Source of the DNA: Fluviicoccus sp.
Lineage (GTDB): Bacteria; Pseudomonadota; Gammaproteobacteria; Pseudomonadales; Moraxellaceae
Direction: 5' to 3'
DNA: 64,000 nt
Assembly (NCBI RefSeq): GCF_030646115.1
Contig: NZ_JAUSMX010000012.1
Coordinates: forward strand, 62,001 to 126,000
Position numbers and translations under genes: made by a program. Every line of letters begins with the position of its first letter. Within the stretch, counting starts at the first letter, position 1. Of the stretch, positions 12,684 through 41,168 are shown piece after piece. Below the pieces are notes generated by a model. It made no database searches and was not told the DNA's origin. It worked only from the letters and a program-made list of their open reading frames with translations.

Positions 12684-12775
12684 GGGCGCATCGCATGCGC
12701 CCTCGTGAACGAACAGAATGCCTGCTTTGAAATGGACGGCGTGTTCTGCGGAGAAGGGCGCAAGCGTTGCGCCCC
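12680..12775. repeat. REPIN-like element, family C (GTAGGGGCGCA head)
   Basis: GTAGGGGCGCATCGCATGCG starts inside the plsC stop codon. About 55 bases later GGGCGCAAGCGTTGCGCCCC closes the inverted pair, with the terminal TAC degraded. Related copies are at 33763-33850 and 41203-41304. Downstream, 12799-12818 holds a further small hairpin, ATCCCCG/CGGGGAT. Confidence 0.7.
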
Positions 12776-12848
12776 AACGTTAAACCGAATAACGTCATCA
12801 TATCCCCGACTGCGCGGGGATGACCCGGAATCGCTATTCCAGCGGCTT

Positions 12849-13799
12849 TCAGCCAAACACCGGAAACCGCCGCTTCGCCGCCAGCCGGTCCATCCCCGCC
12901 TGAATCCGCCGTTCCACTTCCTCATACATTTGCTGCACATAAGCGGCGTCGTCCGCCATCGCCGGGTCCTTCGAAAGATGGATCGGCTCCAGGAATTCGG
13001 TGCGGATCTTGGCGGGCAGCGGAATGTGCTGCAGCGGCGTCACATGCACCGCCAGGCCCAGCGGCCAGCTCAGCGTAATCGGCGCCACTTCCGAGCGCAG
13101 CAGTTTCTTCAGGTTCAGCAATTTCGCCAGCCCGCGTCCTTCCGACAGCACAAACAGCGTGTCATGCCCGCCCACGGTCGCCACCGGCAAAATCGGCCGG
13201 CCACTGCGGATCGCCAGCTTGATGAAGCCGGTGCGTCCGCCCAGTTCCACGGTGTCGCGTTTGCCCCAGCTGCGGAACGAGTCCTTTTCACCACCCGGCC
13301 ACAGGATCACGTCATCGCCTTTCTCAAACGCCGCCTGGATGTTGTCGCGGGTGGGGCTGATAACGCCCATGCGCCGGAAATACCGGCCGAGGCCGGGGGT
13401 CTTCATCAATACGTCGTGGGCGGTGGCGTGCAGGGTGCGCTGCGTGCCGAAATGCCGGTACCAGGCAAAACCGATGGTCCAGGCATCCATGGTCAACGGG
13501 CCGCCGGAGTGGACGCCGATCAGCAGCGCAGGCTCTGCGGGCAGCTTGTCCCAGCCGTCCAGTTCCAGCCGGAAGTAACGGTCCAGCAGGAAGTCGACAA
13601 AGCCGCGCTGCGTGTTCATGAGCCGGGGGTCGGGGCCGTTCAGCCCCTCTGGCGCCCAGGAGGCCGGTGCGGGGGCGGTTTCATGCACTGGCAGCGGTTG
13701 AGGGGCTTTGATCGGGGGCGGTGGGGTTTTGACCACGGAAAGCCGGACCGGGCGGGGGAGGTCCAGTGTCGGGGTGAAACGTTGTTCGGCGGTATTCAT
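12849..13799 (-). CDS. Lysophospholipid/diacylglycerol-type acyltransferase
   Basis: This 316-residue protein is a second acyltransferase, distinct from PlsC. VHSGGPLTMDAW holds the catalytic His-Asp pair, but the second box reads WPGGEKD where PlsC has FPEGTR. A PGG motif there is typical of the DGAT2/monoacylglycerol acyltransferase-like branch. The first 50 residues are Pro-rich and probably disordered. No clear membrane anchor was seen. It converges on plsC, and two related palindromes lie upstream. A role in neutral-lipid or phospholipid remodelling fits the WS/DGAT and lipase nearby; the acceptor is unknown. Confidence 0.8.
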   Translation of the reverse strand: MNTAEQRFTPTLDLPRPVRLSVVKTPPPPIKAPQPLPVHETAPAPASWAPEGLNGPDPRLMNTQRGFVDFLLDRYFRLELDGWDKLPAEPALLIGVHSGGPLTMDAWTIGFAWYRHFGTQRTLHATAHDVLMKTPGLGRYFRRMGVISPTRDNIQAAFEKGDDVILWPGGEKDSFRSWGKRDTVELGGRTGFIKLAIRSGRPILPVATVGGHDTLFVLSEGRGLAKLLNLKKLLRSEVAPITLSWPLGLAVHVTPLQHIPLPAKIRTEFLEPIHLSKDPAMADDAAYVQQMYEEVERRIQAGMDRLAAKRRFPVFG

Positions 13800-13861
13800 G
13801 GCTCGTTTCTCCTGGAGAATATGGCATCAGGAGGTTGGGGTTTCATGATGGCCGCCTGATT

Positions 13862-14306: not shown

Positions 14307-15368
14307 TCAGGTCAGGTCGACGTCAATCATCATGGCGAATTCGTCGGAGTAGGCGTCCTTGATGTCGAGCATGGCCGGCAGGGCGAGCCGGAATGCCGGG
14401 AGCAGGCCCGGATCGAAATGAGCGCCCGACTCCTGCTCAATGTAGCGGATGGATTCTTCCACGGACCAGGCGTGCTTGTGCAGCCGGGAAGAACTCAGGG
14501 CGTCGAAGACGTCGGCGATGGCGGCGATGCGCGCTATCAGCGGAATCTGTTCCCCTTTCAGGCCCTGGGGGTAGCCGCTGCCGTCCCAGCGTTCGTGGTG
14601 GCTGAGGGCAATGGTGCGGGCGGCCTGCATCAGTTCGTCGGGGTGGTTGCCGATGATGTCCGCGCCGAAGGTGGTGTGCTGGGTCATGATGTCCCATTCC
14701 TCCGGCGCCAGCTTGTCGGACTTCAGCATGATGTTGTCGGGAATGCCGATCTTGCCGACATCGTGGGCCGGGGCGGCGTTGAACAGGATGTCGACGGCAT
14801 GGCGGTCCAGACCCGCTGCCTCGGCAATCAGCCGGCTGTAGTGGCTCATGCGGATGATGTGGTTGCCGGTTTCGGTGTCCTTGTATTCGGCAGCGCGGCC
14901 CAGGCGGCGGATCATCACCAGGCGCAGTTTCTCTAGTTCAAGGGTGCGCTGTTCAACCAGCCGGCTCAGGGTGCGGCTGTGCTCGTACACGGCCAGGTGG
15001 GTGCGGACCCGCGCCAGCACCAGCGGCGCGCTGACCGGCCGGGTGATGTAGTCCACGGCGCCCAGGTCCAGCCCGGCCTGCTCCTCGCCGGGTGCGCCGG
15101 GGTCGGTGACAAAAATGACCGGAATATCGCGGCTGGCCGGGTTCTGCTTCAGTTGCCCGCAAGTGTGATGGTGGTTGCAGGCGGAGTCGAGCAATCCCAG
15201 CAGGATCAGGTCCGGTGGATTGCTGGAGCCGGCGATACGGAGCACTTCCTGCCCGTTGGCGACGGCCAGAATGCGGTAGTGCGGCGCCAGTATGCCGCGC
15301 AGCGCCTCGATATTCTTGATGAAATGGTCCGCGATGAGAATGGTTTGCTGCGCGGCGGGTTCGTTCAT
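14307..15368 (-). CDS. HD-GYP phosphodiesterase with a degenerate receiver domain
   Basis: The 353-residue protein joins a receiver-like domain (about 8-125), a coiled linker and an HD-GYP domain (about 150-340). The HD-GYP half keeps HDVGKIGIPD (His202, Asp203) and HHERWDGSGYP, so cyclic-di-GMP hydrolysis is expected. The receiver lacks the residues for phosphorylation: where PDLILLD is usual it reads PDLILLGLL (Gly58), the acidic pair is DH (14-15), and the conserved Lys is Arg110, although Thr88 remains. It probably senses something other than phosphate or acts through dimerisation. It lies 20 bases downstream of the MASE3 HD-GYP gene in one operon. Confidence 0.88.
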   Translation of the reverse strand: MNEPAAQQTILIADHFIKNIEALRGILAPHYRILAVANGQEVLRIAGSSNPPDLILLGLLDSACNHHHTCGQLKQNPASRDIPVIFVTDPGAPGEEQAGLDLGAVDYITRPVSAPLVLARVRTHLAVYEHSRTLSRLVEQRTLELEKLRLVMIRRLGRAAEYKDTETGNHIIRMSHYSRLIAEAAGLDRHAVDILFNAAPAHDVGKIGIPDNIMLKSDKLAPEEWDIMTQHTTFGADIIGNHPDELMQAARTIALSHHERWDGSGYPQGLKGEQIPLIARIAAIADVFDALSSSRLHKHAWSVEESIRYIEQESGAHFDPGLLPAFRLALPAMLDIKDAYSDEFAMMIDVDLT

Positions 15369-18627: not shown

Positions 18628-18747
18628 TGATTACTCACCGTCCACCGCAATGGCGATTTATGTCAAAAATACGGCGAGCTATGTCAATATTTAATTCAAG
18701 CCCGGATAAATACTAAGGTCATTCCCGACTGTCCAGAGGACATGGCC

Positions 18748-21171
18748 ATGACCGCATCCCTTACCATCCATCCCGCCGCCGCCAACGACCTGATTCCACC
18801 GCCCGGCCCGCGCGCCCTGCGCCTGAAGGCCGCCCTGCATGACGCCGGTTACTCCGTGTGCCTGGAGCGCCCGCGCCTGCTGAAGGAATTCCGTAAATCC
18901 GGTGCAGGCCGGGGCGAGCATCCGCTGGTGAGGCGCGCCATGGCGCTGGCCTACGTGATGTCGCACCGCCAGCCGCGCCTGTATGACGACGAACTGGTCA
19001 TCGGCAACGTCACCTCGAAGCGGGTGGCGGCGAATTACTACCCCGAAGGCACCTCGGTCAACATCGTCGAGGATCTGCTGAAACTGGAAGACCGCCCGAT
19101 CAAGCTGAAGCTGACCCCGCGCGAGAAGCTGGAACTGGCGGCGCTGGCCGCCGAAAACACCTTCACCAATATGGGCGTGCGCGCTTTCGGGCGGCCGGGC
19201 TATATCGGCGAATTGCGGGAGCTCCTGATTCCCAAGCGCTACATCGTCACCGAGGAGGCCGGGGTAGGCCATCAGGTGGGGGATTATCGCCGTCTGGTGG
19301 CGGAAGGCTTGGTGGAAACGGATCGCATCGCCGCACGGTGCCTGGAAATGCATACCCTGCCGGACGGCGCTCCCGCCGACGCCGACCAGCTGGCCTTCTA
19401 TCGTTCGCTGCGCATCACCATCGACGGCATTCGCACCATGGCCTCGAATCTGTCCGAGGCCGCCGAGCGTGAGGCGCTGCGCGCCGACATCTCCGACACC
19501 CGCCGCGCCGAGCTGCTGGCCGCCGCCCAGGCCTGCCGCCGCGTGCCTTATTACCCGCCCACCACCTTTCAGGAGGGCTTGCAGGCCTGCTGGCTGCTGC
19601 ACATCGCCATGCTGATGGAAGATTTTGAACAGGGCATGTCCTTCGGTCGGCTGGATCAGGCGCTGATCCATCTTTACGAAGCCGACCTGGCGCGCGGTTC
19701 GTTGACCCGTGAACAGGCGCTGGAATTGTGGGTCAGTTTCGAGGCCAAGACCGGCGAAACCATCCCGCTGTATTCCAACCGCATGGATGTCTATTTCAGC
19801 GGCAACTGCGTCGGCCAGTCGATCACCGTCGGCGGGGTGGATGCGGAAGGCAACGATGTCCGCAACGAACTGTCCGAGCTGGTACTGGAAGCCTTCGGCC
19901 AGCTGGGCACCCGCGAACCGGCGCTGCATGTGCGTGTGCACGCCAATACGCCGAAGAGCCTGCTGGACAAGGCGGTGGCGGTGATGCAGCGCACCGGCGG
20001 CCGTCCGACGCTGATGGGTGACGACACCGTGATCCGCAGCCTGCAAAACACCGGCATGACGCTCGAACACGCCCGCGACTACGCCATCATCGGCTGCGTG
20101 GAACTGGCCAGCCAGGGCCGCACCTACAACTCCGCCGACGCAGCGCTGTTCAACCTGCCGCTGTGCCTGGAGCTGGCGCTGAACCGGGGCAACAGCTTCG
20201 GGGGCGAAACGTTGGGCCTGTTGACGCCGCCGCTGGCCGCCATGCATGACTTCGGCGATGTGCTGGCCGCCTTCCGTGCGCAGGTGGCGCATCAGGTGGG
20301 GCGCATGCAACGGGCCATCAACCGGCTGGAAGAAACCTACCGCGTGCACCGCACCACGCCGGTGAATTCGATCATGACGCAGGGCTGTCTGACCACCGGC
20401 AAGGACGTGACCTGGGGCGGCGGGCTGTATGACTACACCTCGGTGCAGGCAGTGGGTCTGGCCGACGCCGGGGATTCGCTGTACGCATTAAACAAGCTGG
20501 TGTTTGAGGAAAAGCGTTTCACGCTGGCGCAGTTTGTCGAAATATTGAAGCACGACTTTGCCGGGCACGAGCCGCTGCGGGTGGAACTGAGTCGCCGCTT
20601 CGCCCGTTTCGGTAACGGCGATAAGGCCGCCGACGCCATGACCCAGCGCGCCGCCGACGCCTTCACCGATGCCGTCACCCCGCGCCGCAACACCCGCGGC
20701 GGCAAGTGGATCGCCGGGTTTTATTCCATGTCCTGCGGTGTCGGTTTCGGCAGGCACACCGGCGCCTTGCCGAACGGGCGCAAGGCGGCGCAGCGGCTGT
20801 CGAACGGGGTGTCGCCCAGTGACGGCTCCGACCGCAAGGGACCGACGGCGGCGCTGCGCAGCGTCGCCGGGCTGGACAAGTCGCAGTGGGGCAACGCCCA
20901 CGTGCTGAACATCAAATTCGACCAGAAGCTGGTGAAGGGGGCGGCAGGCATCCGCAACATGGGCACGCTGTTCCGCGACTATCTGGTGCGGCAGGACGGC
21001 ATGCAGGTGCAGGTGAACGTCCAGGACGCCGAGGTGCTGCGAGCCGCCAAGCTGAATCCGGCGGCGTATCCCGACCTGCTGGTGCGGGTGTCCGGCTACT
21101 GTTCCTACTTCAGCGACCTGCGTCCCGAGGTGCAGGACGAAATCATCGAGCGCATGAGCCATGGCCTCTGA
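18748..21171 (+). CDS. Glycyl radical enzyme of unassigned substrate (pyruvate formate-lyase superfamily)
   Basis: The 807-residue enzyme has the radical-bearing RVSGYCSYF loop (Gly783) near the C terminus and the active-site Cys450 in IIGCVELAS. The Glu two residues after the Cys (GCVE) is shared by the dehydratases, lyases and decarboxylases of this superfamily (glycerol and diol dehydratases, choline lyase, 4-hydroxyphenylacetate decarboxylase) and differs from alkyl- or benzylsuccinate synthases. I cannot assign the substrate. No microcompartment shell or aldehyde dehydrogenase is nearby. Start: AGAGGA at 18735-18740 fits ATG 18748 (7 bases) better than ATG 18742 (1 base). The activase start overlaps its stop by 11 bases. 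Confidence 0.9.
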   Translation: MTASLTIHPAAANDLIPPPGPRALRLKAALHDAGYSVCLERPRLLKEFRKSGAGRGEHPLVRRAMALAYVMSHRQPRLYDDELVIGNVTSKRVAANYYPEGTSVNIVEDLLKLEDRPIKLKLTPREKLELAALAAENTFTNMGVRAFGRPGYIGELRELLIPKRYIVTEEAGVGHQVGDYRRLVAEGLVETDRIAARCLEMHTLPDGAPADADQLAFYRSLRITIDGIRTMASNLSEAAEREALRADISDTRRAELLAAAQACRRVPYYPPTTFQEGLQACWLLHIAMLMEDFEQGMSFGRLDQALIHLYEADLARGSLTREQALELWVSFEAKTGETIPLYSNRMDVYFSGNCVGQSITVGGVDAEGNDVRNELSELVLEAFGQLGTREPALHVRVHANTPKSLLDKAVAVMQRTGGRPTLMGDDTVIRSLQNTGMTLEHARDYAIIGCVELASQGRTYNSADAALFNLPLCLELALNRGNSFGGETLGLLTPPLAAMHDFGDVLAAFRAQVAHQVGRMQRAINRLEETYRVHRTTPVNSIMTQGCLTTGKDVTWGGGLYDYTSVQAVGLADAGDSLYALNKLVFEEKRFTLAQFVEILKHDFAGHEPLRVELSRRFARFGNGDKAADAMTQRAADAFTDAVTPRRNTRGGKWIAGFYSMSCGVGFGRHTGALPNGRKAAQRLSNGVSPSDGSDRKGPTAALRSVAGLDKSQWGNAHVLNIKFDQKLVKGAAGIRNMGTLFRDYLVRQDGMQVQVNVQDAEVLRAAKLNPAAYPDLLVRVSGYCSYFSDLRPEVQDEIIERMSHGL

Positions 21172-22204
21172 CCTGAACGTGGCCGGCGCGACGCCACGCA
21201 TTACGGTCGCCAACCTCAGCGCCGTCACCTGCGCCGTGCAGCACTTCTGCCTGCACGACGGCCCCGGCATCCGCAGCACGGTGTTCTTCAAGGGTTGCCC
21301 GCTGCGCTGTGACTGGTGCCAGAACCCGGAGTCGATCAGCCCGGAGCCACAACTGGCGTTCAAGTCGCATTTGTGTGTGGAAGGGTGCAGGGCCTGCGTG
21401 GAGGTTTGCCCGGAAGGGGCGATGACCGCGCCCGGCGACTGGGACATGGACAGTTGCACGCTGTGCCGGGCCTGTGTCGATGCCTGTCCGTCGCAGGCGA
21501 TGGTGGCCTATGGCGACACGCAGGCGGTGGACGACATTCTGGCCGAACTGGAACCGGAATTCGGGCTGCACCGCAGCGCCGGAGGGGGTGTCACATTCAG
21601 CGGCGGTGAGGCGACGATGCATGCGGCGGCGCTGGCGGAACTGACGGTGCGGTTGAAATCGGAACAACTGCATTTGACGCTGGAAACCAGCGGCCAGTTC
21701 CGGCTGAAGCATTTGACCGTTGCGATGGTGCAGCCGGGCAGTGTGTTCGATCCGCGCTTTGAGCGGCAGCCGTTGTGGCAGGCGCTGAGCCACCTGGATC
21801 TGATCCTGTTTGACCTGAAGCTGTTTGACCGTGAGGCGCATATTCGCCATTGCGGTGCGACGAATGTGCATATCCAGATCAATTTCCACTGGTTGACAGC
21901 GCTGGCGGCGCAGGGGCGGGGGCCGCAGGTGTGGCCGCGCATTCCGCTGGTGCCGGGGCTGACAGATACACCGGAAAATTTGCGTGGGCTGGCGGGGTTG
22001 ATCCGGGAGGCGGGGCTGACGGCAGTGACGGTGCTGCCGTATCACCCGTTGGGGAACAGCAAGCGAGAATGGTTGGGGGTTGAGGAATTCGGCGTGCAGG
22101 GGATGATGAGTGAGGCGGCGGTGCAGGCGGCCCGGGCGATCCTGGAAGCGGAGGGGTTAAGGACGTTCTTGGCGGGGGAGGAGGCTGACGGCTGTTTTCA
22201 ATGA
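21161..22204 (+). CDS. Glycyl radical enzyme activating enzyme (radical SAM)
   Basis: The 347-residue protein uses S-adenosylmethionine and a 4Fe-4S cluster to place the radical on the partner enzyme. The cluster motif is C46xxxC50xxC53 in KGCPLRCDWCQNPE. A ferredoxin-like insert with two more four-Cys sets (C72, C76, C79, C83; C99, C102, C105, C109) marks it as an activase of the dehydratase/lyase type rather than PflA. FSGGEATM is the SAM-binding GGE region. Overlap with the enzyme gene means coupled translation. Confidence 0.92.
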   Translation: MASDLNVAGATPRITVANLSAVTCAVQHFCLHDGPGIRSTVFFKGCPLRCDWCQNPESISPEPQLAFKSHLCVEGCRACVEVCPEGAMTAPGDWDMDSCTLCRACVDACPSQAMVAYGDTQAVDDILAELEPEFGLHRSAGGGVTFSGGEATMHAAALAELTVRLKSEQLHLTLETSGQFRLKHLTVAMVQPGSVFDPRFERQPLWQALSHLDLILFDLKLFDREAHIRHCGATNVHIQINFHWLTALAAQGRGPQVWPRIPLVPGLTDTPENLRGLAGLIREAGLTAVTVLPYHPLGNSKREWLGVEEFGVQGMMSEAAVQAARAILEAEGLRTFLAGEEADGCFQ

Positions 22205-22545: not shown

Positions 22546-23559
22546 GTGAAGGGTTTCTCTGGAGACACGAGTTTGGTTAATGCATCCGCTCCAGTGCCTT
22601 GCACCCGCGTCATCGTTATCGAAACCACCACCCGCTGCAACCTGTCCTGCGGTTTCTGCGCCCATGACAACCGGCTCGCGCTGGCGCGCCGGACACACTC
22701 GGCCGACTCCCTCCGGCAACTGGTGCAGGTCATTGGCGAACATGCACTGAACAGCGGTGAACGGATTCTGCTCAGCTGGCTGGGCGGTGAACCCTTTTTG
22801 CTGAAATTCCTGTTTGGCATTACCGAACACGCCCGGCGGAAATATCCGCTGTCCTTCAGCGCCACGACCAACGGCACCCGACTGCATGAAGCGGCAATCC
22901 GCCGCCATATCGTGGAGCACTACGCGGAAATCACGGTCAGTGTCGACGGACAGGCCGACTTTCATGACCGGATGCGCGGACGGATCGGCTTGTTCGATTC
23001 CCTCAGGCGCGGCGTGCAACAGCTGGCGCAGGAAGCTCCCGATCTGAAGATACGGGTCAACACGGTGCTGATGCGGGAAAACTTTGCCGGGTTTCCCGAG
23101 CTGTGCCATGAACTGGCCGGCTGGGGTGTTTCGGAAATCACTGTCAACCCGCTGGGCGGCCGTGACCGGCCGGAATTCTTTCCCGGAAACCGGCTGACCC
23201 CGGACTTGGCCGACCAGTTGCCGGATATGGTCGACAGCATCCGGGCAGCCCTGTCGCACAAGACTACGCAACTGATCTTCACCGAGGGCTACCTGAAACG
23301 GATCCAGGCCTCTGTACGCGATATCCGGCTGCCGATCGGTGATTGCAGGCCGGGTGCGGGCTACCTGTTTGTCAGCGCTTCGGGCACGATATCACCCTGC
23401 GCGTTTACGGCCGGGGAATATGGCATTGCGATGGAGAGTGTGCTGACTCCCGCAGCCTTCGCCGTCCTGCCTGATGCATTCCGGAGCATGCGGCAGTCGT
23501 TACGGGCGCAGGCCTGCGGGGACTGCCCCTGTACGAATGTACACGGGAAATTTTCCTGA
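22546..23559 (+). CDS. Radical SAM protein with extra C-terminal cysteines (operon gene 1)
   Basis: In this 337-residue protein the cluster motif CNLSCGFC (C31, C35, C38) follows IETTTR, and LSWLGGEPFLLKF is the GGEP SAM site. C-terminal cysteines (GDC, SPCAF, then ACGDCPC) suggest a SPASM or twitch auxiliary cluster as in peptide- or protein-modifying enzymes. The start is uncertain: GTG 22546 gives the full frame, but TTG 22573 has GGAG eight bases upstream. A TATACT at 22499-22504 may be the -10 element. No clear precursor peptide gene lies beside it. It heads the same-strand series that continues to 29966; the reaction is unknown. Confidence 0.82.
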   Translation: MKGFSGDTSLVNASAPVPCTRVIVIETTTRCNLSCGFCAHDNRLALARRTHSADSLRQLVQVIGEHALNSGERILLSWLGGEPFLLKFLFGITEHARRKYPLSFSATTNGTRLHEAAIRRHIVEHYAEITVSVDGQADFHDRMRGRIGLFDSLRRGVQQLAQEAPDLKIRVNTVLMRENFAGFPELCHELAGWGVSEITVNPLGGRDRPEFFPGNRLTPDLADQLPDMVDSIRAALSHKTTQLIFTEGYLKRIQASVRDIRLPIGDCRPGAGYLFVSASGTISPCAFTAGEYGIAMESVLTPAAFAVLPDAFRSMRQSLRAQACGDCPCTNVHGKFS

Positions 23560-23728
23560 AGGCTGCGGGACAGACCGCGCAGCCGCCGGCTATGTTCCCG
23601 CCTCCGGTTTTGAGGCACACTATTCAGGCCGCCAACGTCCATGATATCAGCGGCATGACATGAATCACGATGCTCCGTCCTGAACGGGGCTGACTTTGGC
23701 GTAACCGCCCCAACGGAATGGCAAACCC

Positions 23729-25309
23729 ATGGCTTTCAGTCTCTTTCAACACCTCTCCAAGGCCCCGACCAATCCCGGCAAGGCCATCGCCGAACGACAG
23801 TTTGATGTAGCCGACCTGTACCGGGGGCCATTGGGCGAAGAGCCCGGAGCAGCCGCTCCCGAGATGCCCGCCCTGGATGAAAAACTCCGGCAGGCGTATT
23901 TCTGGATCATCAATTCCGCCATTATCAGCCCGCATTACGATATCGAGTACAACGATGCGCCGCCGCAGGTGTTCACGCTGGGCGACAGCCACAGCCCGCT
24001 GACCCTGCCCTCGGCGCAAAGTTACTCCAGCTTTATCCTGCTGCCGCTGCTGACCTTTGCTACCCGGGGCAAATGCCTGCTGATCGGCGGGCCCGGCCGC
24101 GGGAAAACGGCCAGTGCGCTGCTGATGGGTATCCTGGGCGGATACTCGGTGAAGGAAGTCCGCCGGGCCATGCAGCATGGACACCCCCAGATGACTGTGG
24201 CTGACCTGCTCGGCAACCCGCTGCCGGCGGACCTGGTCCAGGCCCAGTCCATGAGCGACATCCGGATTGCGTGGCGGGAATGGCTGGGCATGCGCGTCAA
24301 GATTGTTGATGAGTACAACCGCATTCCAACCCGCACCCAGAGCGCGCTGCTGACCGTGATGGGCGACAACTACGCCGAAATGCTGAATCACCTGTATGAG
24401 TGTCCGGATGCCGCTTGGTACCTGACCGCCAATGATGACCGCGGGGGAGGCACCTATCAGGTGATTGAGGCGCTTCGGGATCGCATCGACGTAGTGGTGC
24501 AGGCGCTGGCCTTCAACCCCCGCTTCCTGGGCGACCTGCTGGCGCGCATCGAGGAAAACGTGCGGCCTGAAACCCTGGTTCCGCCGCAAATCATCTTCAC
24601 CCGGGAAGAAGTGGACCAGTTGCAGAACCTGATCCGCCAGGTCGAGGTTCCGGAAGGCGTCCGGCGCCGGATCGAGTTCTTCGCCAGCCAGTTCGAATTC
24701 TGTGAGCTTGGGGGAGCCCAGTTCGAATACAAGACCAAGGATACGGTGCGGCTGGCCGGCGTGGAGTGGAGCGCCATCACCGGTGCCGATACCGGCCGCG
24801 ACCGCCTCAAGGACCTGGGTTGCCAGACCACCAACGGTCTTTCTGTCCGCGCCCTGATGTCCCTGCTGCTCTATGCCAAGGCCATGGCCTACTTCAGGGG
24901 TGATTCGACGGTGATGCTGGAAGATATCCGTCAGATACTCCCCTTCGTCCTGCATGACCGGTTGACACCGGACCTGGACGCCCCTTTCTTTGAGCAGCCG
25001 GGCCACAGTATCTACCGCAGCGACCGGTTCAGTTGGTTGCGCCGCCTGTTTGACCTGTCCTGCGACGAGTTCAACCGGCTGAACCTGGATCATGATGATC
25101 CGGTGGGCGCCTTGTCCGCCGAATTCCGGAACGGGCTGGACGGGTTGGGCGCGGCGGAAGTGCGCGGACGCCTGCAGAAAATTGAACGCCTGATCAATGA
25201 CTGGGGGAACGGCAAGAAACTCTACGGGCATCTCTATGATGACCTGCTGAAACTGAAATACCTGCACCAGCGTTATACCAACTACCTTCGCTGGCTGAGA
25301 ACGCGCTAA
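23729..25309 (+). CDS. MoxR-type AAA+ ATPase (operon gene 2)
   Basis: The 526-residue protein has Walker A GGPGRGKT (120-127), Walker B VKIVDEYNR (Asp194, Glu195), sensor-1 Asn235 in YLTANDD and an arginine finger in EALRDRID. These mark the MoxR branch, whose members work with von Willebrand A proteins to insert cofactors into or remodel target complexes (CoxD/CoxE, CbbQ/CbbO, NorQ/NorD). The 65 residues before the ATPase core and the C-terminal 200 residues are not standard and may bind partners. It starts 170 bases after the radical SAM gene and shares one base with the next gene (TAATG). Confidence 0.9.
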   Translation: MAFSLFQHLSKAPTNPGKAIAERQFDVADLYRGPLGEEPGAAAPEMPALDEKLRQAYFWIINSAIISPHYDIEYNDAPPQVFTLGDSHSPLTLPSAQSYSSFILLPLLTFATRGKCLLIGGPGRGKTASALLMGILGGYSVKEVRRAMQHGHPQMTVADLLGNPLPADLVQAQSMSDIRIAWREWLGMRVKIVDEYNRIPTRTQSALLTVMGDNYAEMLNHLYECPDAAWYLTANDDRGGGTYQVIEALRDRIDVVVQALAFNPRFLGDLLARIEENVRPETLVPPQIIFTREEVDQLQNLIRQVEVPEGVRRRIEFFASQFEFCELGGAQFEYKTKDTVRLAGVEWSAITGADTGRDRLKDLGCQTTNGLSVRALMSLLLYAKAMAYFRGDSTVMLEDIRQILPFVLHDRLTPDLDAPFFEQPGHSIYRSDRFSWLRRLFDLSCDEFNRLNLDHDDPVGALSAEFRNGLDGLGAAEVRGRLQKIERLINDWGNGKKLYGHLYDDLLKLKYLHQRYTNYLRWLRTR

Positions 25310-26301
25310 TGATCTCCGCCGCATTTGCCCGGCTGTTAAGGGACGGCCGGAACGACCTGAATACGCGCTTCCAGACAGCGCGACATCGCTATCCGGACCT
25401 GGATGCGGCCCGCTTCCGGCGTTTTCTGGAAGAGGTGGTCGATCCCCTGGTTTTACGGATGGCGGCGGTTACTCCCGCTGCCATCCCGGATCTGCTCAAT
25501 GCCAGTTACGATGTCGCGCTGGATCTGTGCGGCCAGCGCCTGGTCGGCAGCGAGGCCCGCTATCCGGAAATGAACGCATTGTGGCGGGAGTTGCTGCCTG
25601 TCTCGCTGCCCTTGCTTGCACCAGTGCCGTCCCGGGTTCTGGTGGCGCTGGGCAATGCAATCCATCAACTGGCCACCACGCCCGGCGCGCGCCCGGGCGA
25701 ATGGCTTGACCTGATGGCCGCCATGGCATCCCGGACAAGCGATACCCCGACCTGGTTGCAACTGGGACAAGTGGCCGCCTGGCGATGCGGACTCAGCCAC
25801 TACCGGACAAGTGCGTTGCGGCTTGCCGACCGGCTGCCCGGGCCGCTGGTCGCCCATATCCTGGGTGCGGAAGGCCGCAGTTGGCCTGAATTGAGACAGG
25901 CCCTGAGTACAGACCCCTGGTGGACCCCGGCAGGGCATCCCCGCCTGGAAGAGGTCACCCGTTTTGGCGGCTTCAGCGGCCTGGGCGGGATATTCCAGAG
26001 CCTGCCTGCCGTCAGCGCCTGTGAAGACCAGCTGTTTGTCTTCAGCGGTCCGGATTGCTGGCTGGTCATTGCCGACCGCTTCGGAGTCACCCTCCACCGG
26101 ACAACCCCGGCGGAAAGGCAGGTCGTGGTGGACGGCTCGCGGGTGGATATCCGGAGCAATCTGGTGACGTTGCAGGGGAAAAAACGGAGTTTCGATGACA
26201 TCAGCCGAATCAGCAGCCATGCGGCCACGGAGCATACCCTGCTGCTGTGCTCCCCCGACAGCTATCAGGTGATCGTCGTGGCGCTGAGCGGATCCCTGTA
26301 A
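25309..26301 (+). CDS. Uncharacterised operon protein with beta-rich C terminus (operon gene 3)
   Basis: I do not recognise the family. Of 330 residues, about 1-220 are predicted largely helical by composition (DLNTRFQTARHRYPDLDAA onward), and 235-330 look like successive short beta strands (LFVFSGPDCWLVIADRFG, then VVVDGSRVDI). There is no signal peptide, membrane segment or metal motif. It lies between the MoxR and vWA genes and overlaps both by one base, so it is probably the third partner of that pair. Published MoxR-vWA ternary systems often carry a beta-propeller protein; the strand-rich part here is too short for a whole propeller. Confidence 0.75.
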   Translation: MISAAFARLLRDGRNDLNTRFQTARHRYPDLDAARFRRFLEEVVDPLVLRMAAVTPAAIPDLLNASYDVALDLCGQRLVGSEARYPEMNALWRELLPVSLPLLAPVPSRVLVALGNAIHQLATTPGARPGEWLDLMAAMASRTSDTPTWLQLGQVAAWRCGLSHYRTSALRLADRLPGPLVAHILGAEGRSWPELRQALSTDPWWTPAGHPRLEEVTRFGGFSGLGGIFQSLPAVSACEDQLFVFSGPDCWLVIADRFGVTLHRTTPAERQVVVDGSRVDIRSNLVTLQGKKRSFDDISRISSHAATEHTLLLCSPDSYQVIVVALSGSL

Positions 26302-28067
26302 TGAACGCCGCCATGATGGAACTTCAGGCCCGCTGGCAGCACGCCTGGCCCGAAGCGCTGGCGGTCTGGAGCCGCTATACCCGGCTGCGCGATCCCCGGC
26401 TCTGCCTGAGTACGGACGAGGCGCGTGCGGAAGGGCTCAACGGCAGTTTTGCAATGATCCGGTTGGAGGATCAACGCGTTGTCATCGACCTTGAAAAAAT
26501 AGCCGGCAATGGCCTTGGCGACTATGCGCGGGAAATCCTGGCCCACGAGATCGGACACCATATCCTGGCCCCGGCCACGCTCTCTGATCATGTGCGACTG
26601 CTGGCCAGGATGCGGCCCGCCCTGCCCACCCGGGAAGCTGACGTGGGTCTGATTGCAAACCTGTACAGCGACCTGCTGATCAATGACCGGCTTCAGCGCA
26701 GTTCCCGGCTGCGCATGGCGGATATCTTCAAGGCGCTGCCCCGGGATACGTCATCCTCCCGCCTGTGGCCTCTCTACCAGCGCATCTACGAACATTTGTG
26801 GCAGTTGCGCAAAGGGACGCTGACCTCCGCCGCGCTCGACGATGCCACGGAAGGGGATGCCTGGCTGGGCGCCCGGCTCGTCCGCTGTTATGCCCGGGAC
26901 TGGCTGGAAGGCGCCGCCGGCTTTGCCGCCCTGTGCCTGCCCTACCTGATGGACAACGGGGGAATGGCAGAGGCCTTGCGGGCGCTCCACGACACGGACT
27001 CCGCCGCTCGCGGGGGATGGCCGGGGGGGCTGGTGCAGGTGGAGCCCGCCGAACTCCGGCCGGCAGTGCATCCGGCGAATGATCCCCGGGTGACGGGGGA
27101 GGTGGCGGCAAAGCCCCTGATATCAGCGTCCGATGTCTCCCCCGCGCCCGCCGCTCCGGTTCAGTCCTCGGCAGGTCAATGCCGCGAACCTTTCGAGTAT
27201 GGTGAAATCCTGCGCGCCTGCGGCATTGACCTCAGCCAGCATGATATTGCCGTCCGGTATTATCGGGAGCGCGCACTTCCGCATCTGGTGCGCTTTCCCG
27301 CCCGGCCGCAGGAAATGCAGACAGACCCTGTTCCGGAAGGACTGGACCTGTGGGCGCCGGGCGATGCACTGGACCAGATCGACTGGCTGCAAAGCCTGTT
27401 GCAGAGTCCAACCCTGATTCCGGGACTGACAACCGTCCAGAGGCACTGGGGAACCGAAACGCATATTCCCCCCACCCGGCAGGCCGTGGACCTGGATTTG
27501 TATGTCGATTCCTCGGGCTCCATGCCCAACCCGCAATTTTCAACCTCCTTCACCACCCTGGCCGGGGCCATTCTTTGCCTGTCGGCGCTGCGGGCAGGCG
27601 CGCGCGTGCAGGTCACGCTCTGGAGCGGCAAGCAGCAATTCACCGCCACGCCGGGCTTTGTTCGTGATGAGCATGCCGTGCTGGCGGTGCTGACCGGCCA
27701 TTTTGGCGGCGGGACGGCATTCCCGATCCACTTGCTGCGGGACACCTATGCCAACCCGAGGAAACGCCCGACCCACATCGTGGTGCTGTCTGATGACGGC
27801 ATCAGCACCCTTTATGATCAGGATGAACAGGGAAATGACGGTTATCAGGTCGCCGGGAAAGCCCTGCAACATGCGGGCACCGGCGGCACTCTGGTACTGA
27901 ACCTGCCCAGGGCATGGAGCGCTTTAAATGGCTATGCCCCGGTCCAGCGTGCGCGCGACCAGGGTTGGGCGGTCTACAGCGTCCAGAGCTGGGAAGACAT
28001 GGTGGGATTCGCTCGCCGGTTCAGCCAGTCACATTACGCCCCGGAAGGAGAGACACATGCCCTTTAG
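26301..28067 (+). CDS. von Willebrand A protein with N-terminal HEXXH metallopeptidase-like domain (operon gene 4)
   Basis: The 588-residue protein has HEIGHH (82-87) followed by NLYSDLLINDRL, the arrangement of the metallopeptidase-like domain that precedes vWA in DUF2201-type proteins. A Pro/Ala-rich linker (about 255-300) leads to a C-terminal vWA domain with a complete DxSGS metal site (Asp403) and a downstream SDDG. vWA proteins of this kind are the obligate partners of MoxR ATPases. The start is ATG 26301, sharing one base with the preceding stop; the frame is open 18 codons further upstream. Whether the HEXXH site cleaves protein or is structural is unknown. Confidence 0.87.
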   Translation: MNAAMMELQARWQHAWPEALAVWSRYTRLRDPRLCLSTDEARAEGLNGSFAMIRLEDQRVVIDLEKIAGNGLGDYAREILAHEIGHHILAPATLSDHVRLLARMRPALPTREADVGLIANLYSDLLINDRLQRSSRLRMADIFKALPRDTSSSRLWPLYQRIYEHLWQLRKGTLTSAALDDATEGDAWLGARLVRCYARDWLEGAAGFAALCLPYLMDNGGMAEALRALHDTDSAARGGWPGGLVQVEPAELRPAVHPANDPRVTGEVAAKPLISASDVSPAPAAPVQSSAGQCREPFEYGEILRACGIDLSQHDIAVRYYRERALPHLVRFPARPQEMQTDPVPEGLDLWAPGDALDQIDWLQSLLQSPTLIPGLTTVQRHWGTETHIPPTRQAVDLDLYVDSSGSMPNPQFSTSFTTLAGAILCLSALRAGARVQVTLWSGKQQFTATPGFVRDEHAVLAVLTGHFGGGTAFPIHLLRDTYANPRKRPTHIVVLSDDGISTLYDQDEQGNDGYQVAGKALQHAGTGGTLVLNLPRAWSALNGYAPVQRARDQGWAVYSVQSWEDMVGFARRFSQSHYAPEGETHAL

Positions 28068-28614
28068 TCAGGAAGGTCCGGCCCTGGAAAGCCTGCAGCA
28101 TCGCCTGGCGGAAATCCCCGCAGAGCTCTTTGCACAGCCCGATGCTGGCGCATTGCTGCACGATACGCTGCGTATGCTGGGTATTCCCATCCTTGGGGAG
28201 CACCTGTCGCAATGGCGTAACCGCGCCCTCCGCGAAAATCATGGATTGTTGCCGCTTTTTTGCTGGCTGCTCATTGCTCCGGAGTTGATCCGGAGCAACC
28301 CGCCGGGCCCATCAGTCTGGCGACTGCTGACGGAAACCAGTCCCCAATTGGCTGCGCAGGCCGGGGTTCGCCCGTTCCTGGACGATCCGGACCGACGGGA
28401 AGAACTGCTGCGGCTGGCGCTGGCGGAGCTGGACATGCGACCCGCCGGTGAAACCCCGGAACAGGCGCAAGACCGGCTGGGCAGCATCAGTTCCCTGGAG
28501 CGCGCCCGGGTGTTCGAAGCGGCGAGGGCCGCCGAAGCGCGCGCCCGGGAGATCCGCGAAGCCTTGCTGAAAAGGAAAGCACGGGAAGGTGCCGACAAGT
28601 GGGCGCGGGAATAG
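28057..28614 (+). CDS. Small helical operon protein with C-terminal coiled coil (operon gene 5)
   Basis: I do not recognise this 185-residue protein. It is all-helical in composition; from about residue 145 an Ala/Glu/Arg-rich stretch (ERARVFEAARAAEARAREI) should form a coiled coil. There is no membrane segment or signal. ATG 28057 has AGGAG upstream and overlaps the vWA stop by 11 bases, while the next gene overlaps its own stop by 16. Such tight packing suggests it is made in fixed ratio with its neighbours, perhaps as an adaptor. Confidence 0.75.
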   Translation: MPFSQEGPALESLQHRLAEIPAELFAQPDAGALLHDTLRMLGIPILGEHLSQWRNRALRENHGLLPLFCWLLIAPELIRSNPPGPSVWRLLTETSPQLAAQAGVRPFLDDPDRREELLRLALAELDMRPAGETPEQAQDRLGSISSLERARVFEAARAAEARAREIREALLKRKAREGADKWARE

Positions 28615-29966
28615 CGGACGGATCGTACCGGGATCCTTATCGCCTGCCGGGACTCAGCGACTCCGGGCACGCCCTGCTATTGCGCATGATCAACCACCCC
28701 ATGGCGCCCCGCTACCGGAATCGCAGCGGGCACAAGCTGACACCGGCTGAATTGCAGCAGGCCGTCGCCTTTGAGAAACAGGTTGCCGCAACACCCCCCG
28801 GGCATCTTCCGGACGCTTATCCCGGCTGGTTGCAGGAATTTATCGAGAAGAGCTGCCGCTGGGTTCCCGCCTACAAACCGCTGCGGGGGAAACCGTTTCA
28901 AGAACTGCCTACCTGGACACGCGCTGACCTGTCGCATAGCGTGGAGCGCTACGTCCCCGACACGGTTGATGTCAGCCGCCTGATTCTGTTCAGCACCAGT
29001 GGGACCACCGGCCATCCGCTGGTGGTGCCGTCACTGCCGCTGGTGGCTTCCCGTTATCTGGCTTTTTATCTGGCGGCCCTGCGCGAAATCGGCATCGAAC
29101 CTGCCCGGGGCGCCGACCATGTCGGCATCCTGCTGGCCGGTTACCAGGAAAAGTGTTTTACCTACGTATCGGTCAACCCGACGCTGGGCGAGTCCGGGCT
29201 GGCCAAGCTGAACCTGCATCCCAATGATTGGCGTTCTGAAAGTCATCGCGGGCCGTATCTGGACGACATGGCCCCCGAGGTGATCAGCGGTGATCCCATT
29301 TCACTGGCGGAGTTGGCGCGCGTCGGGATGCAGCACAAACCGAGGGCAATCATCAGCACTTCCATGGTGCTGCTGCCGGCGCAGCGTGAGTATCTTGAAA
29401 CTTGCTTTGCGTGCCCGCTGCTGGACATCTACTCCATGAACGAGGCCGGCCCCATTGCGGTGTATGACACGGCAAGGCAGGGTTACCGGTTGCTCCAGCC
29501 ATGGCTCCATGTCGAAACCCTGGATGCATCCGGACAAGCCGTAGCCCCGGGAGAAGTCGGCGAAATTACGATTACCGGCGGATTCAACGACTGCCTACCC
29601 TTGCTCCGCTATCGAACCGGTGACTACGGCATTCTGGCGATGAGCGCTGACGGCCGCCCGCTGCTCCGGGCGCTCCAGGGCCGCCCGCCGGTCCGCTTTC
29701 GCACCCCGCAAGGCCACTGGCTCAACAATCTGGAGATCACCCACGCCCTGAAGCACTGCGCGCTGGCGCAATATGCCCTGCATCAGGATGCGTCAGGGCA
29801 ACTGATCCTGCGTATCTTTGGCCCCTCGGCAGGCATGGCGCTGGCGAGAATAGCCCTTCACACACTCTTCGGCCCCCGGCAACCGCTCAGAATCGAGCAT
29901 CTGCCACTGCCCACCGCCAAGGTCATTCAGTACACCTCGGATCTGGCAGGATCCGGTCCACTGTGA
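28599..29966 (+). CDS. Phenylacetate-CoA-ligase-like adenylate-forming enzyme (operon gene 6)
   Basis: The 455-residue protein carries the AMP-binding P-loop STSGTTGHPLVVP, the A5-like region DIYSMNEAGPIAVYD and LRYRTGDYGIL, in the order found in PaaK-type ligases. These enzymes activate an aryl or other carboxylate as an acyl-AMP and pass it to CoA, a carrier or an amine. The C-terminal subdomain is short. The N-terminal 90 residues resemble the helical lead of PaaK proteins. It starts at GTG 28599 inside the preceding gene. No CoA-ester pathway genes are in the operon, so the substrate and acceptor are open. Confidence 0.85.
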   Translation: MGAGIADGSYRDPYRLPGLSDSGHALLLRMINHPMAPRYRNRSGHKLTPAELQQAVAFEKQVAATPPGHLPDAYPGWLQEFIEKSCRWVPAYKPLRGKPFQELPTWTRADLSHSVERYVPDTVDVSRLILFSTSGTTGHPLVVPSLPLVASRYLAFYLAALREIGIEPARGADHVGILLAGYQEKCFTYVSVNPTLGESGLAKLNLHPNDWRSESHRGPYLDDMAPEVISGDPISLAELARVGMQHKPRAIISTSMVLLPAQREYLETCFACPLLDIYSMNEAGPIAVYDTARQGYRLLQPWLHVETLDASGQAVAPGEVGEITITGGFNDCLPLLRYRTGDYGILAMSADGRPLLRALQGRPPVRFRTPQGHWLNNLEITHALKHCALAQYALHQDASGQLILRIFGPSAGMALARIALHTLFGPRQPLRIEHLPLPTAKVIQYTSDLAGSGPL

Positions 29967-30101: not shown

Positions 30102-30119
30102 TGACATTGTTCAATGTCA
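30102..30119. promoter_or_regulatory. Palindrome TGACATTG-TT-CAATGTCA before the monooxygenase
   Basis: Perfect 8-bp arms with a 2-base spacer end 18 bases before the ATG of the flavoprotein monooxygenase. Place and symmetry suit a repressor operator. No regulator gene adjoins. Confidence 0.5.
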
Positions 30120-30137
30120 CATCAATCAGGAAAAGCC

Positions 30138-31604
30138 ATGACCACGCAACGCAAGCAAGTTGATGTCGCCATCATCGGAGCCGGTTTCGCCGGTCTGGGC
30201 ACGGGTATCGAACTGAAGAAAGCCGGTATCCTCAATTTCGTGATTTTTGAAGGTGAAGAGGGCGTGGGCGGCTCCTGGCGCACCAACACCTATCCGGGTT
30301 GCGCCTGTGACGTGCCTTCGCACCTGTACAGCTATTCCTTCGCACCCAACCCCAAGTGGCCGGAAGCTTTTTCGCGACAGGAAGATATCCGCCAGTACAT
30401 CGAGGAATGCGCCAGCCAGTACGGTATGGACCCCTACATCCGCTTCTCCACCCGCGTCACCGACGCCAGCTTTGACGAGAAGTCCGGCCGCTGGATCATC
30501 ACTACCAATGACGGCCAGATCACGGAAGCGCGGGTGCTGGTGCCTGCCACCGGCGCGCTGAGCCACCCCAAGTATCCCGATATCAAGGGCATGGACCGCT
30601 TTAAAGGCAAGGCGCTGCACGCCGCCCGCTGGGACCCGACGGTGGATTTGCGCGGCAAGCACGTGGGTGTCATCGGCTCCGGAGCTTCCGCCATCCAGGT
30701 GGTGCCGAATGTGGCCGGTGAAGTGGCCGACCTGAAAGTTTTCCAGCGTACGCCATCGTGGGTCATGCCGAAGTTCAACCGCACCTTCAGCGACAAGGAC
30801 CACCGCGACTGGGTGAAACATCCGTGGAAACAGAAGGCGCACCGGCTGGGCCTGTACTGGACCATGGAATCGGCGTTGCCGGCAATCCTGTGGTATCCGA
30901 AGTTGCTGAAGGTGGGCGAGCTGATGCACAAGCGCGCGCTGAACAAGCATATCCAGGACCCGGCCCTGCGCCGCAAGCTGACGCCGGATTACAAGGTGGG
31001 CTGCAAACGCACGCTGGTGTCGGATGACTGGTTCCCGGCTTTTGCGCGACCGAACGTTCATCTGATTACTGACGGCATCAAGGAAATTACCGAGGCAGGC
31101 GTTCGCACCAGCGACGGCGTGGAGCACGCGCTGGACGTGATTATCTATTGCACCGGCTACGAGATCGGCGCACCGGCCTATCCCTTTGCCATCAAGGGCA
31201 TCGGCGGGCTGTCGCTGGCGGATTATTGGGGCGGTCAGTCCAAGGCCTATTACGGCATGAACGTGAGCCATTTTCCGAACATGCTGCTGACCATGGGCCC
31301 CAATTCCGGGCCGGGCCACACCTCGGTGCTGATCTATCAGGAGGCGCAGTACAAGTACATTGCCAAGTACACCAAGACGCTGCTTAAGCAAAAGCTGCGT
31401 TATCTGGATGTGAAGGAAGAGGTGATGCAGGAGCAGTTCCAGAGCTTCCAGGACCGGATGCGCAACAGTTCATGGCTGTCAGGCTGCCAGAGCTGGTATC
31501 TGAATGCGGACGGCACAAATTCGACGATGTGGCCGGGGTTCAGCTTTGAGTATGTGTTAAGGACGCGGAATATGGATATGGGGGCGTATAACGTGGTGGC
31601 GTGA
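30138..31604 (+). CDS. Flavin-containing (Baeyer-Villiger-type) monooxygenase
   Basis: The 488-residue protein has an FAD fold GAGFAGLGTGIE, a second nucleotide fold GSGASAIQVV for NADPH, and FKGKALHAARWD, close to the FxGxxxHxxxW(P/D) fingerprint of type I Baeyer-Villiger enzymes. Such enzymes insert oxygen next to a carbonyl in ketones, including cyclic and steroid ketones, giving esters or lactones. ATG 30138 has AGGA seven bases upstream; ATG 30114 in the same frame lacks a good site. It is a single-gene unit between a palindromic operator candidate and a strong terminator. Confidence 0.9.
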   Translation: MTTQRKQVDVAIIGAGFAGLGTGIELKKAGILNFVIFEGEEGVGGSWRTNTYPGCACDVPSHLYSYSFAPNPKWPEAFSRQEDIRQYIEECASQYGMDPYIRFSTRVTDASFDEKSGRWIITTNDGQITEARVLVPATGALSHPKYPDIKGMDRFKGKALHAARWDPTVDLRGKHVGVIGSGASAIQVVPNVAGEVADLKVFQRTPSWVMPKFNRTFSDKDHRDWVKHPWKQKAHRLGLYWTMESALPAILWYPKLLKVGELMHKRALNKHIQDPALRRKLTPDYKVGCKRTLVSDDWFPAFARPNVHLITDGIKEITEAGVRTSDGVEHALDVIIYCTGYEIGAPAYPFAIKGIGGLSLADYWGGQSKAYYGMNVSHFPNMLLTMGPNSGPGHTSVLIYQEAQYKYIAKYTKTLLKQKLRYLDVKEEVMQEQFQSFQDRMRNSSWLSGCQSWYLNADGTNSTMWPGFSFEYVLRTRNMDMGAYNVVA

Positions 31605-39855: not shown

Positions 39856-39926
39856 ACCCGGCTCCCCCGCCATCCGGCGAGTATCCTACGGCAGCCGTCG
39901 GGATTATGCTGCCCTCATCCTCCTCC

Positions 39927-39962
39927 CGGTTCCGGCATGAAGATCGCCGGAACCGCTTTTTC
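39927..39962 (+). terminator. Rho-independent terminator between HPP-CBS and NnrS genes
   Basis: Perfect 10-bp arms CGGTTCCGGC and GCCGGAACCG enclose nine bases and are followed by CTTTTTCTT. It ends 16 bases before the NnrS start codon, so NnrS may depend on read-through or a promoter close by. Confidence 0.75.
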
Positions 39963-39977
39963 TTCGAGGTCGCTGCC

Positions 39978-41168
39978 ATGCAAGTCATTGATCGCAAAAA
40001 GGCGCTGGCCATTCCACCGCTGTTCCGGTTGGGCTTCCGCCCTTTCTTTCTGGGCGGCGCCGTGCTGGCGCTGCTGGCCATTCCCGTATGGCTGCTGGCC
40101 TGGCATGGTTATCTGTCCGGCTGGAACCCGGCGGGCGGCTGGCTGGCCTGGCACCGCCATGAAATGCTGTTCGGTTTCGGGCTGGCTATTGTTGCCGGGT
40201 TCCTACTGACGGCGGTGCAGAACTGGACCGGGCAACCCAGCCTCAGCGGCAAACCGGTGGCGCTGCTTGCTGGGGTGTGGCTGGCGGCGCGTATCGCCTG
40301 GCTGGTGGATGCTCCTTTGGGCGTGCTGGTCCCGCTGGAACTGGCCTTCCCGCTGCTGACGGCGGCGGTAATGGGCCGCCTGCTTTGGCAGGTGAAACAG
40401 ACGCGTAATTACCCGATTGTGGGTGTGCTGGTGCTGCTGGCGGCGGCCGATGCAGTGACGTTTTTCGGTCTGGCGCGGGCTGATGACTCCTTGCAGCGCC
40501 AGGGCGTGTGGGCCGGCATCTGGCTGGTAGCGGCCATGATGACGATCATCGGCGGCCGGGTGATTCCGTTTTTCACCCGTCGCGGCCTGCGGCGGCCGGG
40601 CGACGCGCCGCCCGCCGTGCGGCAGGATCAGGCCTTGCTGGGCGGGTCAGTGCTGACGGCGGTGCTGATGGCGACCGGTATGGCGCTGACGCCGCAGCCG
40701 TGGCTGGCCGTGCTGTTTGCTGCGCTGGGTGTGGGCCATGCGCTGCGGCTGGTGCGATGGTTTGACCGTGAGTTGCATACCGTGGCGCTGTTGTGGTCGC
40801 TGCATGCCGCGTATGCCTGGCTGGTGGCGGCGTGTTTCGGCATGGCGGGCTGGCATCTGGGGTTGTTCGCCTCGCCCAGCCCGGCGCTGCATGCGCTGAC
40901 CGTGGGCGGCATGAGCGGGCTGATCCTGGCGATGATGTCGCGGGTCAGCCTCGGCCATACCGGGCGTGATCTGGTGCCGCCAAAGGGTATGGCGATAGGC
41001 TTCGGTCTGTTGCAGTTGGGTGCGCTGGCGCGGGTGTTCCTGGCGCTGGTTGCGCCGGCGGCGGGGTTGTGGCTGGCGGGTGGTTGCTGGACGCTGGCCT
41101 TCGGGATTTTTGTGTGGCGCTATGGGCCGATGCTGGTGCAGGCGAGGGTGGACGGGCATCCGGGTTGA
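39978..41168 (+). CDS. NnrS-family heme/copper membrane protein
   Basis: The 396-residue polytopic protein has about 12 hydrophobic segments. The start region LFRLGFRPFFLGGA, WHRHEMLFGFGLAIVAGFL, GGRVIPFFTRRG, HALTVGGMSGLILAMMSRVSLGHTGR are all NnrS signatures; the His residues bind heme and copper in characterised members. NnrS protects against nitric oxide stress. ATG 39978 has GAGG upstream, and 24 codons of open frame before it overlap the terminator and are not used. No FNR/DNR box was seen upstream. Confidence 0.93.
   Translation: MQVIDRKKALAIPPLFRLGFRPFFLGGAVLALLAIPVWLLAWHGYLSGWNPAGGWLAWHRHEMLFGFGLAIVAGFLLTAVQNWTGQPSLSGKPVALLAGVWLAARIAWLVDAPLGVLVPLELAFPLLTAAVMGRLLWQVKQTRNYPIVGVLVLLAAADAVTFFGLARADDSLQRQGVWAGIWLVAAMMTIIGGRVIPFFTRRGLRRPGDAPPAVRQDQALLGGSVLTAVLMATGMALTPQPWLAVLFAALGVGHALRLVRWFDRELHTVALLWSLHAAYAWLVAACFGMAGWHLGLFASPSPALHALTVGGMSGLILAMMSRVSLGHTGRDLVPPKGMAIGFGLLQLGALARVFLALVAPAAGLWLAGGCWTLAFGIFVWRYGPMLVQARVDGHPG

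Follow-up and report, generated by a model that had tools for sequence, protein, structure and literature searches.

A conserved MoxR AAA+ and HEXXH-vWA gene system with a PaaK-like ligase and a recurring NadR neighbour

Several chaperone pairs are built from a MoxR AAA+ ATPase and a vWA protein, namely NorQ-NorD, CbbQ-CbbO, CoxD-CoxE and RavA-ViaA, and MoxR-vWA pairs in general are widespread, mostly without a known client. In one source (PMC9976466), the NorQ-NorD pair is described as a maturation factor that acts in FeB insertion. A second group is formed by the MoxR-vWA ternary conflict systems of Kaur et al. 2020 (PMC7159879), which have third components; among them, the FtsH ternary systems include a radical SAM enzyme. 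The locus described here shares with the chaperone pairs a MoxR AAA+ gene adjoining one whose vWA product contains a MIDAS motif, and with the ternary conflict systems the joint presence of MoxR, vWA and further components. It differs from the chaperone pairs in the HEXXH domain added to its vWA protein, in having no client enzyme encoded alongside, and in the addition of two proteins without named relatives (genes 3 and 5), a PaaK-like ligase and NadR.

The locus lies in the window, by which we mean the whole stretch of 64,000 nucleotides that was analysed, at positions 22546-29966, where the open reading frame listing and the raw junctions place six genes, all on the plus strand. Gene 1 (22546-23559) encodes a radical SAM enzyme that is an accessory member of the set, and a gap of 170 bases separates it from gene 2 (23729-25309), which encodes a MoxR-type AAA+ ATPase that is extended at both its N and its C terminus. 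Gene 3 (25309-26301) belongs to a family without named relatives and has a predicted helical N-terminal domain followed by about three propeller blades. In the product of gene 4 (26301-28067) a HEXXH (zincin-like) domain is joined to a vWA domain whose MIDAS is intact. Gene 5 (28057-28614) encodes a helical protein without named relatives, and gene 6 (28599-29966) a PaaK-like adenylate-forming ligase with intact catalytic motifs. From gene 2 onward each gene overlaps the next, by 1 base at the 2/3 and 3/4 junctions (TAATG at both), 11 bases at 4/5 and 16 bases at 5/6, so that the single direction, overlaps and gap listed in the earlier note on this DNA are exact. The longest open reading frames of genes 4 and 5 begin earlier, at 26247 and 27928; because these points lie upstream of the homologue starts in the alignments, 26301 and 28057 are the likely starts. 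Pfam and NCBIfam scans of the six genes gave radical SAM, AAA_3 with AAA_lid_2, a weak VWA_2 and an AMP-binding match of the PaaK/DVU_1553 type, and no family for genes 3 and 5.

When 84,980 species genomes were scanned with an alignment of the MoxR protein as query, 184 relatives were recovered, a number that is a lower bound because the scan is pattern-based. A contig scan with the single vWA protein as query had found no relative; the MoxR alignment scan later succeeded. The best 80 of the 184, with 67-88% identity in MoxR, were kept, and many of the loci come from metagenome bins. By phylum, these best 80 of 184 belong to Pseudomonadota (63), Verrucomicrobiota (8), Chloroflexota (3) and, with one locus each, Acidobacteriota, Gemmatimonadota and Thermodesulfobacteriota; the other three have no phylum label, one of them being titled KSB1. 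At least six phyla carry the system in near-identical order, and the hosts include the culturable Janthinobacterium, Lysobacter and Dyella. In nearly all of these loci the five core genes are present and identically ordered. Clustering of the open reading frames over the loci gave one unit, which runs MoxR, gene 3, vWA, radical SAM (where present), gene 5, ligase, PnuC (where present) and NadR. A sample of the window's phylum (n=299, window genome included) held two relatives whose vWA proteins are 57-59% identical to that of the window; the gene set is the same in both, except that one has no gene 1, and the system was found in 3 of 369 sampled genomes of the class. Among 195 Verrucomicrobiota the query genome alone has it.

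In a profile search of the best 80 of 184 loci, MoxR was found in 80, gene 3 in 79, the vWA gene in 76, gene 5 and the ligase in 74 each and the radical SAM gene in 31, and several of the absences are contigs that end within the unit. Genes 3 and 5, on whose spread beyond this lineage the earlier note had made the case for a system depend, are thus carried across phyla. The 16-base overlap between gene 5 and the ligase gene is identical in 38 loci, and since the order recurs in distant phyla and the exact overlap in so many loci, this goes far past what chance would produce. The proposal that genes 2 to 6 act as a unit is supported by the recurrence of the same set and order in distant phyla. 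Judged from sequence, this core is conserved and ordered, its catalytic motifs are intact and the overlap of gene 5 with the ligase gene is fixed. The five genes for MoxR, gene 3, HEXXH-vWA, gene 5 and the PaaK-like ligase are a real, uncharacterised bacterial gene system. The six-gene set as first described needs to be redrawn, however, with gene 1 as its least firmly attached member and with a neighbourhood that elsewhere runs on to pnuC and nadR. Likewise, the expectation that both the ligase and the radical SAM gene would be found beside MoxR-vWA holds for the ligase, whereas the radical SAM gene is present in only 31 of 75 ligase-bearing loci (window included).

The product of gene 2 scores 27.7 bits against AAA_3 (cut-off 27) and 35.9 against AAA_lid_2. 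Across the 81 sequences of its family, Walker A and B, sensors 1 and 2 and the arginine finger are kept at 94-100% at the key residues, and by these features it can be classed as a MoxR AAA+ ATPase. It is also the most conserved member, with a mean pairwise identity of 75%. All 76 homologues of gene 4 contain HEXXH, and nearly all of them also have the DxSxS motif of the MIDAS, which makes both a metal-dependent peptidase activity and joint action with MoxR plausible. Of 31 members of the family, 19 matched VWA_2 and 3 gave a weak match to Peptidase_M48. The DUF2201 (PF13203) zincin-vWA proteins have, like gene 4, a HEXXH domain followed by vWA, and the NLYxDLLINDRL stretch after the HEXXH region of gene 4 resembles NIACDIVVNG of DUF2201. 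However, Pfam gave no PF13203 match and hhalign with one DUF2201 sequence gave a weak alignment of 21 columns, which falls short of establishing a relationship.

The earlier note had suggested that the unit might be related to the MoxR-vWA ternary conflict systems, and there are points of likeness beyond the MoxR-vWA core itself: those systems have propeller and FtsH variants (PMC7159879), of which the half propeller of gene 3 and the radical SAM gene are reminiscent. Read in this way, the locus would be an NAD-linked conflict or defence module in which NadR restores NAD after the action of an NAD-consuming effector. Its patchy distribution, both in the class and among the Verrucomicrobiota, would suit such a module, as would the radical SAM enzyme of the FtsH ternary systems (PMC7159879). 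Other observations speak against this reading, however. Pfam scans of 54 gene 3 and 49 gene 5 sequences contained none of the VMAP, iSTAND, FtsH and bpX third components, a search that very distant relatives could escape. The ternary systems have a variable effector domain or a C-terminal beta-propeller on the vWA protein, whereas gene 4 has neither; it keeps one constant zincin-vWA architecture and ends soon after the vWA domain. The P-loop GXXXTAKS is described as frequent in the ternary systems of the FtsH and propeller types, and the MoxR family here has GGPGRGKT instead. No system was returned by PADLOC-DB, where nothing was seen beyond a viperin-type similarity of gene 1 and a weak match of NadR to mad8, and a search of phages, IMG/VR and plasmids gave no copy. 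Given this, and an architecture that stays constant across phyla, we regard a conflict module as quite improbable and the proposed relationship as unsupported.

Among the remaining core members, gene 6 has AMP-binding and DVU_1553/PaaK similarity and matches PaaK structures. Its motifs SGTTG, Y-S-x-N-E and Y-R-T-G-D are conserved and Lys441 is kept at 97%, so that its sequence, catalytic lysine included, is that expected of a PaaK-like adenylate-forming enzyme of the ANL type. Gene 5 and the ligase gene are duplicated as a pair in L083 and L088. This joint duplication and the overlap of exactly 16 bases that 38 loci share suggest that the two proteins form a stoichiometric pair. In these two Chloroflexota loci (L083:15704-21160 and L088:14379-19246) two such pairs flank the radical SAM gene. 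The open reading frames of the second pair of L083 are irregular, and the same locus has a gene of the proline racemase family (L083:12709-13860) inside the unit, between gene 3 and the vWA gene.

For the two proteins without named relatives we relied on predicted structures. The AlphaFold2 model of gene 3 (pLDDT 95.5) has a helical domain and half a beta-propeller, and its residues 208-328 align to WD40 propellers with a Z of about 10 over about 107 residues (VIA-align). The model of gene 5 (pLDDT 93.3) is helical and VIA-align gave helix matches only. Neither fold had a Foldseek match at E<=0.001, and neither profile matched a PDB sequence. Conservation in gene 5 is uneven, with a mean identity of 67% over residues 110-185 (the last 76) against 40% over residues 1-109, so that a variable N-terminal part is joined to a highly conserved C-terminal helix. 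The possibility that this tail is a tag common to other proteins was discarded, as gene 5 alone matches it in its own genome.

Gene 1 scores 48 bits against the Pfam Radical_SAM family. In an alignment of 27 sequences the cysteines C31, C35 and C38 of the CxxxCxxC motif are kept at >=90% and the auxiliary cysteines C267, C285, C324 and C327 are invariant, the pattern of a radical SAM enzyme with auxiliary-cluster cysteines. Its best full-length PDB match is 5wgg, the radical SAM peptide maturase CteB (E 2e-13). Attachment of the gene to the system appears loose. On the MoxR tree its presence requires 11 changes, and the checked genomes without a linked copy have weak matches in three cases and none in the rest. 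Its position upstream of MoxR in the window is also unusual, since 25 of the 29 complete loci with a radical SAM gene have it between vWA and gene 5. For a joint occurrence of the radical SAM gene and PnuC the loci provide few independent pairs. The peptide maturase match, along with the conserved C-terminus and variable N-terminal part of gene 5, could suggest a RiPP-like system in which the radical SAM enzyme modifies gene 5 and the zincin domain cleaves it. However, 43 of the 74 loci with gene 5 have no radical SAM gene, and the gene 5 model is that of a folded helical protein. In addition, a look for radical SAM substrate residues gave no column that tracks the presence of the radical SAM gene cleanly. 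We consider a RiPP-like system very unlikely.

The strongest functional clue is the link to NadR and PnuC, which lies outside the coordinates covered by the earlier note. NadR is an NMN adenylyltransferase and nicotinamide riboside kinase and PnuC a transporter. Among those of the best 80 of 184 loci in which the core is complete and the downstream sequence is 1.5 kb or longer, 67 of 73 have a NadR-type gene beside them, 62 of them with NadR directly downstream on the same strand; PnuC is also present in 38 loci. The six loci without this linkage (L017, L018, L022, L051, L075 and L089) each have a NadR-like match elsewhere in the genome, which in L022 is to the kinase half alone, and every system-bearing genome checked has such a match. 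The window itself has no NadR linkage, which counts against an NAD-coupled reading; in its genome, PnuC and NadR are paired on contig C23, at 121474-123095 (L092), away from the system. Among sampled genomes of the class, a NadR match (E<=1e-15) was found in 3 of 3 with the system and 7 of 366 without it (Fisher p 1.4e-5, a value that ignores kinship and depends on the threshold, just as the background figure varies with the E-value and the genome sample).

More than one NadR lineage is linked to the system in the NadR tree. Besides the main one, a 30%-identical lineage is linked upstream of MoxR in L032, L034 and L043, whose hosts are Chitinimonas, Uliginosibacterium and a Rhodocyclaceae genome, and the NadR of the window genome groups with this lineage with a support of 100. 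There is also a deep lineage made up of Chloroflexota and a Rhodobacteraceae bin, although its long branches leave the grouping unsure. Different NadR lineages in different positions argue for a functional tie rather than for one inherited arrangement, and yet NadR and PnuC might merely share regulation with the system. The linked NadR matches TIGR01526 over its full length at 154.6 bits, below the curated 341, and the linked PnuC scores 80.2 bits against TIGR01528, above the cut-off of 42.45. The NMNAT HxGH motif and the kinase P-loop are both present in most linked NadR proteins; together with the transporter, these resemble the parts of PnuC-NadR nicotinamide riboside salvage.

L083 and L087 retain just the NMN adenylyltransferase half of NadR, in a frame that shares 4 bases with the end of the ligase gene. 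This could be expected if the genes formed a pathway to a small molecule or cofactor derived from a nicotinamide nucleotide, in which the ligase and the radical SAM enzyme (where present) modify a building block, the adenylyltransferase makes a dinucleotide, and MoxR-vWA inserts the product into its enzyme. A radical SAM enzyme, a ligase and a nucleotidyltransferase do resemble such a route. The usual form of the linked gene is however a full NadR with an intact kinase P-loop, which together with PnuC amounts to ordinary riboside salvage, and no further conserved biosynthetic enzymes accompany the system. We therefore think a cofactor pathway unlikely, while taking it more seriously than a conflict module.

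The explanation we favour, tentatively and with somewhat less than even confidence, is an undescribed MoxR AAA+/vWA machine, acting in remodelling or as a protease on a putative client, that is coupled to NAD synthesis by NadR. This assignment of function is drawn from gene neighbourhood and co-occurrence. The remodelling or protease complex would consist of MoxR, whose family forms hexamers, together with the vWA-zincin protein. Conservation and the predicted folds suggest that gene 3 could be its adaptor and that gene 5 may dock the ligase to it through the conserved C-terminal helix. The ligase would adenylate a carboxylic acid; as MoxR opens the client, this acid would be transferred either to the client itself or to a small molecule. 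NadR, often with PnuC, could supply NAD, or recycle NMN or nicotinamide riboside, for an NAD-dependent client or reaction. In a subset of lineages the radical SAM enzyme may tailor the substrate. A bolder proposal is a new kind of machine that joins AAA+ remodelling and carboxylate activation to NAD, in which the MoxR/vWA-zincin complex with gene 3 and the gene 5-ligase pair attaches an acyl or NAD-derived group to a client or else governs the synthesis of NAD; it seems to us conceivable yet rather doubtful. The earlier idea that the unit loads a modified group onto a target is possible, and we keep it as a putative role. In the open-access literature that was searched we found no MoxR-vWA system tied to NAD salvage, PnuC or NadR, and a NAD-coupled MoxR/vWA machine, if true, would newly connect protein remodelling with NAD metabolism. 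Given five constant parts, two families without named relatives, a near-constant NadR and culturable hosts, both client and role are directly testable.

The window has neighbouring genes that could be looked at as partners. A glycyl radical enzyme of 809 aa lies with its activase at 18742-22204; it falls below every NCBIfam cut-off, that of subfamily TIGR01774 included, and among solved structures it comes closest to 2f3o, pyruvate formate-lyase 2. The gene that follows the unit directly downstream, at 30114-31604, encodes an FMO-like or Baeyer-Villiger-type monooxygenase. Both are adjacent to the unit on the same strand, and a MoxR-like protein, BssE, adjoins benzylsuccinate synthase, so the unit might mature the glycyl radical enzyme (18742-21171) or act with the monooxygenase. 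However, the best 80 of 184 loci gave a single 30% match to the former (L089, on the opposite strand) and two matches of 31-36% to the latter (L037 and L073), and L010, at 88% identity, has a match to neither. With only scattered weak matches, neither gene is conserved with the system; both were set aside as partners, and we give this reading very little credence. Elsewhere in the window, a 384-aa open reading frame at 12705-13859 has no Pfam match at E<=1e-5, and an NnrS-family gene at 39906-41168 suggests that the host may handle NO or denitrify. Two HD-domain (HD_5) proteins are encoded at 14307-15368 and, on the minus strand, at 51126-53417, one with a response regulator receiver domain and one with PAS and GAF domains.
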